Both the position numbers and the translations under genes were made by a program. This document shows positions 34,576-38,483 of a stretch of DNA of 64,000 bases, piece by piece. The notes beneath the pieces are model-generated. The model ran no database searches. It was not told where the DNA came from and saw nothing but the letters and a program-made list of their open reading frames with translations. How positions within the stretch are numbered: the stretch's first letter is position 1; each line of letters opens with the position of its first letter. The stretch comes from Pedobacter insulae (GTDB taxonomy: Bacteria > Bacteroidota > Bacteroidia > Sphingobacteriales > Sphingobacteriaceae): positions 186,001 through 250,000 of the forward strand of contig NZ_FOPP01000004.1 of assembly GCF_900113525.1 (NCBI RefSeq), read 5' to 3'.

Positions 34576-35817
34576 TTAATTTAACAATACACCTTCCTCG
34601 GCAATCGACTTTATCATATCCTCACTGTAATTTAGTTTCCCGGTTTGCGCGATAAATACATCTTTTTGAATTAATAAGTCCTTATTGGCGATAAGATTTT
34701 TTAAGCTAACGCTTCCGATTACGTATTTGTAGTCGTTTCGAGAAAAGCGTTCCACAATATTTTCAACTTGTAGCTTATCAACGGTATATTCATGTATATA
34801 ACGTAGATAAACTTCAATGTTTACTTTGTCAGTGTGAATAAGACCGTTTTGTTGGTTATATTTTTTGTACTCATAACGGTAATCGTAGCGTAATGCTGCG
34901 ATGTCTGATAATACTGCTGCACCTGTTGGGTGACCTCCGGCTCCTTTGCCAAAGAAGAATTGTTTGTCGGCAAATGCTGCTTGAACGGTCACGCCGTTAT
35001 ATTCGTTTTCAACATTGTATAAGAAGTCGTCGGCTTTTACAAACTTTGGTAATACAAAGGTAACCACCTGTTTGGTGCTAATTTTACGGGCAGTAGGGAC
35101 TAATTTAATTTTATAATTCTTTTCTTTAGCGTATTGGATGTCATTGTCTGATAGATTTTGAATACCAACATTTAAGATGTGGTCGGGATTGATAAAGAGA
35201 CCATAAGCATGTGCCGTTGCAATGGTAAGTTTAAATTTAGGATCATAACCTCCAACGTCTAGGATAGGGTCTGTTTCAGCAAAGCCTAAATCCTGCGCTT
35301 GCTTTAAAGCAGTTTGATAAGCAAGTCCTTCATTAAATATCTTCGATAAAATGTAGTTTGAAGATCCATTAAAAATACCGCTTATGCCGTGTAGTAATTC
35401 ATTATCATAATATTCTTCCAAATTACGAATGATAGGGATACTACCACATACAGCGCCTTCGTATAACAGGGAAGTGCCATGCTCGGCCTGTAATTTCACC
35501 AACTCCTGTAAATGTGTAGCGATCATTTTTTTATTGGCCGATACTACATTTTTCCCATTACTGAGCGCTTTTTTTACAATCTTAAATGCAGCATCTGCAT
35601 CATCGATTAATTCCACAATGGTATTGATTTCAGGATTATCTAAAATTTCATCATGAGAAGTCGTAAATAACGACGCTGGTAAAGTACGTTCCTTATCAGG
35701 ATTTTTAATGGCTATTTTAACTACTTCCAAATTTAAACTCTGACTGCGAATAATATCATTCAGCCCCTGACCAACCACACCAAATCCAAATAACCCGATC
35801 TTAAGTTTCTTACTCAT
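34576..35817 (-). CDS. hom: homoserine dehydrogenase
   Basis: A 413-residue NAD(P)-dependent enzyme making homoserine from aspartate semialdehyde. The Rossmann motif is GLFGFGVVGQGL (about residues 8-19); YEGAVCGSIPIIRNLEEYYD and GIFNGSSNYILSKIF are family signatures; the catalytic Lys is in DLGFAETDPILDVGGYDPKFK. There is no aspartokinase fusion, so this is the monofunctional form. It follows metX by 15 bases and is probably under the same SAM-riboswitch control. Confidence 0.94.
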   Translation of the reverse strand: MSKKLKIGLFGFGVVGQGLNDIIRSQSLNLEVVKIAIKNPDKERTLPASLFTTSHDEILDNPEINTIVELIDDADAAFKIVKKALSNGKNVVSANKKMIATHLQELVKLQAEHGTSLLYEGAVCGSIPIIRNLEEYYDNELLHGISGIFNGSSNYILSKIFNEGLAYQTALKQAQDLGFAETDPILDVGGYDPKFKLTIATAHAYGLFINPDHILNVGIQNLSDNDIQYAKEKNYKIKLVPTARKISTKQVVTFVLPKFVKADDFLYNVENEYNGVTVQAAFADKQFFFGKGAGGHPTGAAVLSDIAALRYDYRYEYKKYNQQNGLIHTDKVNIEVYLRYIHEYTVDKLQVENIVERFSRNDYKYVIGSVSLKNLIANKDLLIQKDVFIAQTGKLNYSEDMIKSIAEEGVLLN

Positions 35818-35832
35818 TTTTTATTTTTAAAA

Positions 35833-36891
35833 TTATGCTGTTCTATTTAGTTTTATTATTTTCTCGCTTGGACTTTCCTTTAAAAAATTTCCAATAATAT
35901 TAGTTAAGCGATCCGTTTCAATTAGGAATCCATCATGTCCATATGCTGAGCTAATGCTGCTAAGTTGCGCACCTTTAATATGTGTTGCTAAAAATTTTTG
36001 TTCACTGAGAGGGAATAACACGTCATTTTCTATACCTATAACCAAGGTGTTCGATTTTACATTGTTCAATGCATCTGTAACACTTTTCCTACCTCTGCCC
36101 ACATTGTGGCTATCCATTGCCTTGGTTAAATACCAGTAGCTATAAGCATTAAAACGTTTACATAACTTCTCTCCCTGATAATTCTGGTAAGATGCTGCCC
36201 GATAACCGGTTGTTTTTTCATTAACACTTTCCAGTTGTGTAGCTGCGTAAGCTTCGTAAGTGCGATAGGACAATAGTGCAATACTCCTGGCTGCCTTTAA
36301 CCCTTTTAATCCTCCATCTGGTTGGTTTGCATAAAAAGTACGATCAGTACTGATGGCTAAACGCTGACTTTCGTTGAAGGCAATTCCCCAAGGTGAGTGA
36401 ACCGCATTGGTAGCAACCAATATTAAATTTTCAATTTCATTAGTGCCAGCTAGCGACCATTCCAATGCCTGTTGTCCTCCCAATGAGCCGCCAATCAACA
36501 CCTTAATCTTGTTTATGCCTAAATGCTTGGTTAACAAGTGATGAGCTGCAGCCAGATCTCTGATCGTGAATTCCGGGAACGAAAGGTAATATGGCAAACC
36601 GGTTACGGGGTTCTTGCTTAATGGATTGGAACTGCCATAATTGGAGCCAATTATATTAGCACAAATGATAAAATGTTCCTCCGGGTTAAATAATGCATTA
36701 TTCCCGAATAATCCTTTCCACCAATCTAGTACATCCGAATTTGCGGTTAAAGCATGGCAGGCCCAAATTACATTGTCTTTAGCAGCATTTAATTTGCCAA
36801 ATGTTTGATAGGTAATTTCCAGATTACGTAATTTTTTTCCGTTTTCGAGTTTGAAGATTTTAGGGTGCTTATATATTGAAGTAGTGCTCAT
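35833..36891 (-). CDS. metX: homoserine O-acyltransferase, MetX family
   Basis: A 352-residue alpha/beta-hydrolase acyltransferase that activates homoserine. The nucleophile Ser is in LIGGSLGGQQALEW (about 135), with catalytic Asp in IENDVLFPLSEQ and His in AYGHDGFLIET. MetX of this group normally transfers acetyl, but acyl specificity cannot be settled from sequence alone. The ATG at 36891 is preceded by a ~380-base leader with a SAM aptamer and a 37-codon ORF, so methionine status likely controls it. hom follows. Confidence 0.93.
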   Translation of the reverse strand: MSTTSIYKHPKIFKLENGKKLRNLEITYQTFGKLNAAKDNVIWACHALTANSDVLDWWKGLFGNNALFNPEEHFIICANIIGSNYGSSNPLSKNPVTGLPYYLSFPEFTIRDLAAAHHLLTKHLGINKIKVLIGGSLGGQQALEWSLAGTNEIENLILVATNAVHSPWGIAFNESQRLAISTDRTFYANQPDGGLKGLKAARSIALLSYRTYEAYAATQLESVNEKTTGYRAASYQNYQGEKLCKRFNAYSYWYLTKAMDSHNVGRGRKSVTDALNNVKSNTLVIGIENDVLFPLSEQKFLATHIKGAQLSSISSAYGHDGFLIETDRLTNIIGNFLKESPSEKIIKLNRTA

Positions 36892-36993
36892 TTATTAAAG
36901 TTGTAAGTGTGAATGATGGGCATAATCATCTTAAAAGAAGAGGCTTAACCGATGCTTTCCTAGTTTAAAGAAAATAAAATGGAAGATTATTGG

Positions 36994-37007
36994 TTAGCAC
37001 ATGCTAA
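36994..37007. promoter_or_regulatory. palindrome overlapping the leader-ORF stop
   Basis: A perfect 6-base inverted repeat TTAGCA/TGCTAA with a 2-base centre spans 36994-37007 and includes the stop codon and last codons of the 37-residue ORF. A second overlapping arm (TGCTAAAGCA) lies beside it. It could act as a hairpin or protein operator; unproven. Confidence 0.4.
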
Positions 37008-37107
37008 AGCATATACTTTTACTATACGACATATTTATCGTAAAAAAAACCAGTTTTGAGTTCAGACCCAAGTTCTCGCGAAGCGAAATTGAATTGAAAG
37101 TTTTCAT
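36994..37107 (-). CDS. candidate 37-residue leader peptide between SAM riboswitch and metX
   Basis: An ATG at 37107 opens a 37-codon frame ending at TAA 36996-36994. It starts MKTFNSISLRENLGLNSK and ends ...SICFSMC. It begins about 10 bases after the 3' strand of the aptamer's closing stem and is not merely a shadow of another gene. The last five residues are Cys-Phe-Ser-Met-Cys directly before the stop, and two internal Met codons precede them. A sulfur-amino-acid-responsive leader peptide is an inference; no family is recognised, and chance occurrence of a short ORF remains possible. Confidence 0.5.
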   Translation of the reverse strand: MKTFNSISLRENLGLNSKLVFFTINMSYSKSICFSMC

Positions 37108-37116
37108 ATTCTTTAA

Positions 37117-37227
37117 ATTTATATTTCCAAATAACACCATGTTACCCGGTCAGGAATTGGCACCTTCTCCGTTTGGGAGGGTTGCCAGTGGGTCAAAGAG
37201 CCTGTCTCTAGCCACTTCTTTATAAAT
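37117..37227 (-). promoter_or_regulatory. SAM riboswitch (S-box/SAM-I type) in metX leader
   Basis: On the minus strand the aptamer core is recognisable: an AGTGG/CCACT helix enclosing a stem-loop, then GGCAACC, a CTCC/GGAG hairpin, the conserved AAGGTGCCAATTCCTGAC block, and a TAACA/TGTTA hairpin. The closing stem P1 pairs 37221-37227 with 37117-37123 (ATTTATA with TATAAAT, seven pairs). The position upstream of metX-hom fits SAM feedback on methionine synthesis. The 5' helix differs from the strict SAM-I consensus, so covariance scoring would decide SAM-I versus a variant. Confidence 0.8.
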
Positions 37228-37280
37228 CAAACCAATAAAGGAATTGACTTTATATATTTAGCCTTCGCCAAATAATATTT

Positions 37281-37361: not shown

Positions 37362-38483
37362 TTAAATTTGTGCTAATGCCTGGTTTAAATCTTCTTTGAT
37401 ATCATCTACATGCTCGAGTCCAACTGAAATTCGAATTAAATTCTGTGGAGTTTTAGTGTCGGGCCCTTCTACAGAAGCTCTATGCTCTATTAAGCTTTCT
37501 ACACCCCCTAAGCTAGTTGCCTGGGAAAATAGTTGTACTGAATTTACTACTTTTCGTGCGCTTTCCGCACCTCCCGTGACTAGAATGGAAAGCATTCCGC
37601 CGAAATTTTTCATTTGCTTTTTCGCAATCTCATGTTGAGGGTGACTTATTAACCCAGGATAGTATACAAATTCCACTTTTGGATGAGCGGCTAGATACTT
37701 CGCCAATTCCATTGCATTTTCGCAGTGACCTTTTATGCGATAGGCTAGTGTTTTAATACTTCTAAGTAGTAAGTAGCAATCAAACGGCGACTGTACTGCA
37801 CCGCCAATTTGTTGTATATTTCTAATTTTTTCCCAGAATGGATTAACGGTTGCGGTCGTTAAAGAACCTCCTAAGACATCGCTATGGCCACCTATATATT
37901 TGGTAGTAGAGTGCATAACAATATCAGCACCTAATGTTAATGGATTTTGCAACATCGGTGAGGCAAATGTACTATCACAGGCAAGAATTAAATGATGCTG
38001 TTTGCATATTTTTCCAATTGCCTCTATATCACTTATTTTTAATAATGGATTGGAAGGCGTTTCCACCCAGATCATTTTTGTTTCAGGTTTTACATAGCTG
38101 TCTATATTTTCAATTGCTGTTAAATCTATAAAATCGAAGCTAAGTGTAGTACTGAACATACTTTGCAGCTGTTTTTTGAAACCCCAATACATATCATCAG
38201 GCGCAATAATATGGCTGCCGGGATCTAAAGCTTGGAAGACAGCCATTCCAGCCGTATTCCCGGAGGAGAATGTGCAGGTTTCAGCACCAAATTCCAATGC
38301 AGTAATCACACTTTCTAAAGCTGATCGATTTGGATTGCTCACTCTACTATACATATGGCCCCCAGGATAACCTCCATCTTCAGCGCGATAAAATGTGGTG
38401 GATAAACTAATGGGCATGCTTACATCGCCAGTAGCTGCTTCGGTGTGGTTGAGTGCGTGAATAGCTTTAGTTTCAGGTTTCAT
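37362..38483 (-). CDS. cystathionine gamma-synthase/PLP trans-sulfuration enzyme
   Basis: A 373-residue Cys/Met-metabolism PLP enzyme. It contains YSRVSNPNRSALE, SSGNTAGM (PLP phosphate loop), VETPSNPLLKISDI and the Schiff-base Lys195 in HSTTKYIGGHSDV. Together with metX and hom next door it probably condenses acyl-homoserine with cysteine or sulfide, i.e. metB/metZ-like; the exact sulfur donor and gene name cannot be decided by eye. It lies upstream of the SAM-riboswitch region but on its own transcript, with the promoter shared divergently with the lipocalin-like gene. Confidence 0.88.
   Translation of the reverse strand: MKPETKAIHALNHTEAATGDVSMPISLSTTFYRAEDGGYPGGHMYSRVSNPNRSALESVITALEFGAETCTFSSGNTAGMAVFQALDPGSHIIAPDDMYWGFKKQLQSMFSTTLSFDFIDLTAIENIDSYVKPETKMIWVETPSNPLLKISDIEAIGKICKQHHLILACDSTFASPMLQNPLTLGADIVMHSTTKYIGGHSDVLGGSLTTATVNPFWEKIRNIQQIGGAVQSPFDCYLLLRSIKTLAYRIKGHCENAMELAKYLAAHPKVEFVYYPGLISHPQHEIAKKQMKNFGGMLSILVTGGAESARKVVNSVQLFSQATSLGGVESLIEHRASVEGPDTKTPQNLIRISVGLEHVDDIKEDLNQALAQI

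Follow-up and report, generated by a model that had tools for sequence, protein, structure and literature searches.

Between a SAM-I (S-box) riboswitch and metX of Pedobacter insulae lies a short open reading frame, and the question raised by this locus is whether that frame is a leader peptide through which the supply of sulfur amino acids is read in addition to that of SAM. A preliminary description of the 64,000-nucleotide stretch of DNA that was analysed (the window) had placed an ATG-started frame of 37 codons here, and it is indeed present at 37107-36994 of the reverse strand, its ATG lying 8 nt 3' of the end of the RF00162 aptamer and its end reading, as described, TGC TTT AGC ATG TGC TAA. 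The arms of the "perfect palindrome" said to enclose this end (TTAGCA/TGCTAA) likewise exist, but they are separated by a 2-nt centre (TTAGCA-TG-TGCTAA), and the hairpin predicted for the RNA takes another register, 37017-36996.

A leader frame behind the riboswitch in Pedobacter

The riboswitch sits between a gene of the cystathionine gamma-synthase/lyase type and metX (Table 1). The best NCBIfam model for the former is NF005871, cystathionine gamma-synthase (415.8 bits, below its cut-off of 513), and for the latter TIGR01392, MetX (E = 2.7e-99; 332.6 bits, below its cut-off of 500). The first ATG in frame is found at 37140, within the aptamer, and would open a frame of 48 amino acids; the start was taken as 37107 because the leaders of the relatives begin 5-9 nt after the aptamer. 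A T-box is absent, an Rfam search of the window at gathering scores having matched only RF00162 and one tRNA gene.

Table 1. Features of the riboswitch-leader-metX locus of P. insulae, in window coordinates.
Feature	Position	Strand	Basis
SAM-I (S-box) riboswitch aptamer	37116..37228	-	RF00162, 73.0 bits, gathering score 44.4
Aptamer stem P1, 3' strand (TATAAATT), G/C-free; proposed to double as the leader's ribosome-binding region	37116..37123	-	RF00162 alignment
Leader peptide ORF, 37 codons, MKTFNSISLRENLGLNSKLVFFTINMSYSKSICFSMC	36994..37107	-	Translation; frame at matching place in 34/34 congeners compared
Degenerate sulfur-codon tail, S-I-C-F-S-M-C-stop	36994..37017	-	Relatives typically C-M-C-C-C-[IM]-x-stop
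Hairpin H0 across the terminal codons (AGUAUAUGC-UUUA-GCAUGUGCU)	36996..37017	-	Predicted fold
Hairpin H1 remnant (CUUCC...GGAAAG)	36955..36985	-	Sequence; relatives' next hairpin H2 absent in window
metX, homoserine O-acetyltransferase, first gene 3' of leader	35833..36891	-	ORF and NCBIfam
hom, homoserine dehydrogenase, gene after metX	34576..35817	-	ORF; NF004976, 311.7 bits, cut-off 205
PLP-dependent gene, cystathionine gamma-synthase/lyase type, upstream of riboswitch	37362..38483	-	ORF and NCBIfam

The congener set comprised 35 genomes, of which 34 carry a metX orthologue (72-86% identity), whereas one (G035, 81% complete) had no match and was left out of the comparison; the relatives' riboswitches were taken from 30 returned loci and 36 inspected places beside metX. 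The frame recurs behind the aptamer in all 34 congeners, starting 5-9 nt after it, with lengths of 25 to 47 codons and endings that are typically those given in Table 1 (e.g. MKTLNLQSLSEPSANLKKVEQTSISFICCDMRAFTCMCCCIQ), and the corresponding leaders of two genomes from other families, G049 and G036, end in CCMCICCPCC and TCCCCCC. Across the 35 genomes formed by the 34 congeners and the window, the distance from the ATG to an ATGTGY motif takes ten values between 57 and 117 nt, every one of them a multiple of three.

The preliminary description had looked to an excess of synonymous change as the mark of such a leader, and in this respect it was not borne out: over the 15 congeners with 42-codon leaders, omega was 0.73 in frame, with 0.90 and 0.62 for the other two frames, and purifying selection on the peptide sequence was not found. 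The terminal Met/Cys codons, whose conservation among relatives it had proposed to examine, are kept, as are the frame and its position. The peptide body can change freely and the frame, the start and the terminal codons are held. Since an attenuator leader would itself display a free body with fixed frame, start and end, the codon test alone cannot prove that the frame is one.

In 32 of the 34 congeners an additional gene of approximately 1.3 kb stands between the riboswitch and metX, which we call metY because a representative passes the cut-off of the O-acetylhomoserine sulfhydrylase model TIGR01326 (679 versus 495 bits). It is missing from this place in 3 of 35 genomes, namely the window (36892-37115), G016 (L031) and G018 (L048).

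Behind the leader stop, the Pedobacter loci (L031-L064) display twin hairpins, H1 and H2, of the form CUUCC...GGAAG then G-Y-C...R-G-R-U, followed by ACGC or a variant thereof. H2 was scored in 33 congeners and the window (G005 was dropped, having no H1 match); it reaches at least 5 bp in 31 of the 34 loci, with clearly different arm sequences, and looks compensatory by eye, this impression coming from a best-hairpin search and not from a covariation test. An Rfam search of six loci returned no second RNA family within the leader or behind its stop at E <= 5.

The window copy retains the aptamer, the start, the open frame, the predicted H0, a partial H1 and the C-rich interval discussed below, and yet its tail, C-F-S-M-C, has two separated Cys codons only, with no Cys run, and H2 is missing altogether. 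We think that it is a decaying or simplified member left after the loss of metY, in which any cysteine sensing has probably been weakened or lost and the proposed SAM gate remains. A stronger form of this reading, compatible with the general model developed below, is that the window leader is a dead relic and that only the SAM aptamer acts on metX-hom; to this we give a little less than an even chance. Such a relic is what one would expect from the loss of the Cys run and of H2 and from a genome in which no relative of metY above 40% identity is found anywhere. It accords less well with a frame that is still open, an ATG that still stands 8 nt behind the aptamer and an H0 that is still predicted to be strong, or with G016, which is likewise without metY here and retains the ending CMCCRIY together with both H1 and H2. 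Either way, the preliminary description picked up a real element from its most worn example.

Cysteine codons at the leader end and their spread in Bacteroidota

The element was followed beyond the genus in three sets that together hold 95 metY/metX loci. The genus-centred set (37) consists of the window, the 34 congeners, G049 and G036. A survey of the class (139 genomes, 98 with an aptamer above cut-off) gave 134 hits, 120 of which were fetched, the others being ten that were already in the set or the window's own and four that were omitted (G140, G155, G101 and the second of G083); it contributed 13 loci, among them one more congener, G112. A set of named taxa supplied the remaining 45, these being the loci with an aptamer among 80 metY loci, and for 10 of these over 400 nt separate aptamer and metY, so that the first gene behind the aptamer may be a different one. 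At least two genomes occur twice, since L201 (Pedobacter rhizosphaerae) and G010, and L215 (P. changchengzhani) and G005, have the same peptides, each pair being a single genome that entered two sets. Three loci of weak metY likeness (L137, L146, L168) were placed among the 137 other SAM riboswitch loci, which mainly precede metH, genes of cystathionine synthase type and unidentified genes.

Under a strict rule (first ATG 0-25 nt after the aptamer and at least two Cys in the last 12 residues), a leader was found at 65 of the 95 metY/metX loci, compared with 166 of 19000 single-base shuffles of the downstream sequence. The yield was 37/37 in the genus-centred set, where 33/37 have at least three Cys in the last 12 residues, 9/13 in the class set and 19/45 in the named set, versus 3/137 at the other riboswitches, where one (L169) looks real and two are frames of 7-10 residues. 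The rule excludes L107, whose ATG lies at -1 and which was nonetheless counted as a leader in the analyses of P1, of the residues in the leader tails and of the frame of the Cys runs; it also excludes L094, L152 and L190 (GTG/TTG or later starts), L204 (a Cys run inside a longer frame) and the leader of Bernardetia, with a start 62 nt behind the aptamer. Among the named taxa that carry a leader are Pontibacter, Dyadobacter, Lewinella, Saprospiraceae, Cyclobacteriaceae, Sphingobacterium and Pedobacter. In three genomes of one family (f40; L171, L183, L185) an additional small frame, e.g. MEFFKSLPTSSDNLLTNKQFRSYVSFQ..., was seen by eye between the Cys leader and metY/metX.

The named set also shows what stands behind the aptamer elsewhere. 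A hairpin followed by a T run is present in 12 of the 45 loci, including Niabella, other Chitinophagaceae, Ignavibacteria and Balneola, and no locus combines such a terminator-like hairpin with a leader (0/45, given 19 leaders and 12 terminators; p = 0.0004), from which it would appear that the leader tends to occupy the place of the usual SAM terminator; a further 14 of the 45 have neither a terminator nor a two-Cys leader under the strict rule.

The 66 riboswitch-coupled leader loci hold 64 distinct peptides, in which Cys accounts for 31% and Met for 12% of the last 14 residues, as against 2% and 0.9% of the rest of the peptide; the leaders having been chosen for Cys, the Cys figure for the tail is partly built in, and the Met figure is free of this selection. 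Outside the genus, Met makes up 36 of 350 tail residues versus 9 of 606 in the bodies. The preliminary description, which had regarded the terminal Met/Cys codons jointly as the signal, was thus right that the tail is loaded with codons for sulfur amino acids, and needs amendment as to their rank: Cys dominates the tails, and Met was set aside as the main sensed codon, although on its codon counts it remains a candidate second signal, strongest in Sphingobacterium (L218, ...MSMRMRMHMHLPTC). In that locus, from Sphingobacterium sp. GVS05A, the leader ends ...IAMSMRMRMHMHLPTC and Met codons outnumber those for Cys.

Could the repeated UGY triplets serve the structure of the RNA, the SAM riboswitch acting alone and the leader being a passive translated upstream ORF or a by-product of H0? 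The predicted H0 lends this account some substance, for its stem reaches 8-9 bp in two leaders whose tails are poorer in Cys codons, those of the window and of G017, its position pairs in most relatives, and half of its pairs never vary, which leaves it near-invariant; the lack of a synonymous excess in the leader also agrees with it. Covariation does not back H0 or H1, the observed score being reached by 45 of 500 shuffles and the number of pairs changed on both sides by 109 of 500, as both hairpins hardly vary. Against it speaks the reading frame. Runs of TGYTGYTGY occur within 260 nt of the aptamer, no frame being assumed, in 49 of the 95 metY/metX loci versus 3 of the 137 others, and 48 of these 49 are in frame with the first ATG (p = 4e-22 against the one third expected, relatedness being ignored), in RNA contexts that differ by family, from plain TGT repeats in G036 to mixed TGT/TGC in L214. 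Met is enriched as well, outside the genus, and we regard a riboswitch acting alone as unlikely.

Proposed control by SAM and charged tRNA

Two properties of the aptamer's edge bear on the SAM side of the element. The 3' strand of P1, i.e. the last 8 nt of the aptamer, contains a mean of 0.56 G/C in the 66 leader loci; at the 137 other SAM riboswitches the mean is 2.7 of 8, and at the 12 terminator loci it is 3.2. In 64 of the 66 leader loci the distance from P1 to the leader ATG is 5-15 nt. A weak, AU-only P1 before a start codon would fit a stem that SAM stabilises and that then covers the ribosome-binding region, and because this strand would double as that region, SAM is proposed to gate translation of the leader.

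On the cysteine side, no terminator-like site, for which our own rule required at least 4 G-C pairs with a T run no more than 2 nt away, was recognised in the 140 nt following the leader stop at any of the 66 riboswitch-coupled leader loci; weaker look-alikes that the rule misses were seen by eye in G036, where five T follow a hairpin three bases on, and in L185, where an AU-rich hairpin runs into five T. The interval from the stop to the gene, approximately 127 nt long, contains 20.7% C and 12.8% G (63 leader loci), as against 16.2% and 17.0% in the platforms of other SAM riboswitches (100 loci). An excess of C over G is found in 20 of 22 loci outside the genus, and the trend holds also against 43 terminator-less platforms (p = 3e-5), the loci not being independent; the window's own interval has 21.6% C and 8.8% G, and in Pedobacter H1 and H2 lie within the C-rich interval. 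Such a composition is a weak mark of Rho, and Rho would be the likeliest terminator given a C-rich, G-poor interval and no terminator by the rule. The idea that the Cys region hides the ribosome-binding site of the following gene found no general support: with the Cys codons masked, the start region of that gene became only slightly freer (mean unpaired 0.56 to 0.59), and its accessibility increased by at least 0.10 in only 5 of 37 loci.

Two loci upstream of metY, L226:2753-2945 (Saprospiraceae) and L249:2779-2950 (Prevotellaceae), combine Cys leaders with a strong intrinsic terminator, and no aptamer was detected in either, even a weak one, at E <= 1. In these two of the 35 named loci that lack an aptamer, the segment separating the Cys codons from the stop can pair with the 5' arm of the terminator, a textbook attenuator layout that implies the direction of the response: low cysteine, gene on. 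The riboswitch-coupled leaders hold their Cys codons near the stop, unlike this terminator layout. A further case is L259 (Gemmatimonadetes), in which a short frame, ...MPCSIFMCMCMCIPPARG..., starts 296 nt before metY; neither an aptamer match nor a terminator was found there.

Taken over all loci, comparison of the sequences yields an aptamer, a kept frame, a start 5-15 nt behind P1, a Cys/Met-loaded end and no recognisable intrinsic terminator. The reading that we favour, by a modest preponderance of the evidence, is that the window holds a worn member of a widespread Bacteroidota element, in which a leader gene ending in Cys/Met codons next to its stop serves as the expression platform of a SAM-I riboswitch; placed before the direct-sulfhydrylation genes metY-metX-hom, the element would exert a Rho-linked control with two inputs. 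In the absence of SAM, the AU-only P1 would open and ribosomes would start on the leader; with SAM bound, P1 would close and hide the leader start. Should charged tRNA-Cys (or tRNA-Met) be scarce, ribosomes would stall at the leader end and thereby keep Rho off the RNA that follows the stop, which is rich in C and poor in G, and transcription would continue; with ample cysteine, or with SAM bound, this RNA would be exposed and transcription would end early. The operon would then be on only when SAM and Cys/Met are both low. For the more general proposition, that in Sphingobacteriales, Cytophagales and Saprospiraceae-like lineages the leader start is the sole platform of this SAM-I riboswitch and replaces the SAM terminator, the aptamer admitting ribosomes and charged tRNA-Cys/tRNA-Met setting their stalling, we consider the balance to be even.

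The density of Cys at the leader ends, up to 8 in 12 residues, also invites the idea that the nascent peptide itself is the sensor, of a metal, of redox state or of sulfide, and acts on the ribosome with no part for charged tRNA-Cys; copper sensing by a nascent exported protein has reportedly been described (PMC9973294). A peptide that binds a ligand in this way is nevertheless improbable here, given that Cys spacing is not constant across families, that the controlled genes make homocysteine and that L226 and L249 are laid out as attenuators responding to charged tRNA. As to chance, short frames are common around the ORF and a length of 37 codons proves nothing by itself, but its place, frame and terminal codons are conserved in the 34/34 congeners compared and in other families, which takes the frame beyond chance and makes a functionless ORF scarcely credible.

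Relation to known systems

As a rule, riboswitches and attenuators based on leader peptides are encountered separately. The present element resembles the SAM-I (S-box) family, RF00162, in that its aptamer scores above the gathering score and methionine genes lie downstream, and departs from it in the lack of a recognised terminator, in the Cys-rich leader after P1 and in a P1 3' strand that is almost G/C-free. Polycysteine leader peptides of Actinobacteria have reportedly been studied by Canestrari et al. in 2020. In the tna operon of E. coli, ribosome stalling next to the stop blocks Rho, free tryptophan being sensed through the nascent chain. The logic proposed here would be analogous, in that a ribosome held near the leader stop would shield the RNA from Rho (the tna operon is named in PMC1262725), and differs in that charged tRNA is the proposed signal in place of free tryptophan.

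The closest relatives on the cysteine side are the polycysteine leader peptides of actinobacterial cys genes, for which, in the accessible portion of a 2005 account of mycobacterial Cys leaders (PMC1262725), the authors suggested Rho. These share with our leaders the Cys-codon runs near the stop and the lack of an obvious terminator, and are unlike them in phylum and genes and in that the available text on cysteine mentions no riboswitch. In Rhodobacterales, uORFC-8-2 before cysS likewise carries tandem Cys codons within an upstream-ORF stem, although it has an intrinsic terminator and the part of PMC8632094 at hand mentions no aptamer for it. Short leader ORFs proposed to attenuate are known from the same phylum, in the amino-acid operons of Flavobacterium psychrophilum (PMC9723704) and in the long 5' UTRs of Bacteroides thetaiotaomicron (PMC7366714), neither SAM aptamers nor Cys codons being named for them in the accessible sections of these sources.

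On the riboswitch side, the ppe2 B12 riboswitch of M. tuberculosis (PMC11260477, main text) comes nearest, since with ligand bound it is predicted to occlude the start region of an upstream ORF, and translation of that ORF controls the gene; it differs in its ligand and in a coupling mainly by termination-reinitiation, and cysteine is not mentioned in that main text. The SAM-II riboswitch of metA in Sinorhizobium meliloti is also followed by an AUG1 and a distant second start, but according to PMC9373788 AUG1 is not used in its context, AUG2 shares the frame of AUG1 and a Rho-independent terminator is present.

The preliminary description had further supposed that an aptamer combined with a leader peptide might be undescribed. 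In that breadth the supposition does not stand, a riboswitch with a translated upstream ORF being known from ppe2 (PMC11260477); for a SAM-I aptamer with a Cys-rich leader, no description was found in the open-access literature, most subscription papers lying outside the search. The general element joins a SAM-I riboswitch to a Cys leader peptide, each of a known kind. The decision of the riboswitch appears to be fed into a sensor of tRNA charge, SAM and then the sulfur amino acids (Cys, Met) being read in series; if this is true, it amounts to a two-input gate on direct sulfhydrylation and would suggest how Bacteroidota balance cysteine against methionine. The platform is one not matched by any Rfam family in the loci searched, and for automatic annotation a simple signature would be an ORF that ends in Cys and lies 5-15 nt after a SAM-I aptamer. 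In one genome of the class survey, G091, a Cys-rich leader stands behind three of four SAM riboswitches (L152, L169, L173), preceding metY, a SusC/RagA-like TonB-linked receptor (TIGR04056, partial) and a RimK-like ATP-grasp gene (GTG start), and since these leaders precede other genes as well, the module may not be tied to metY.
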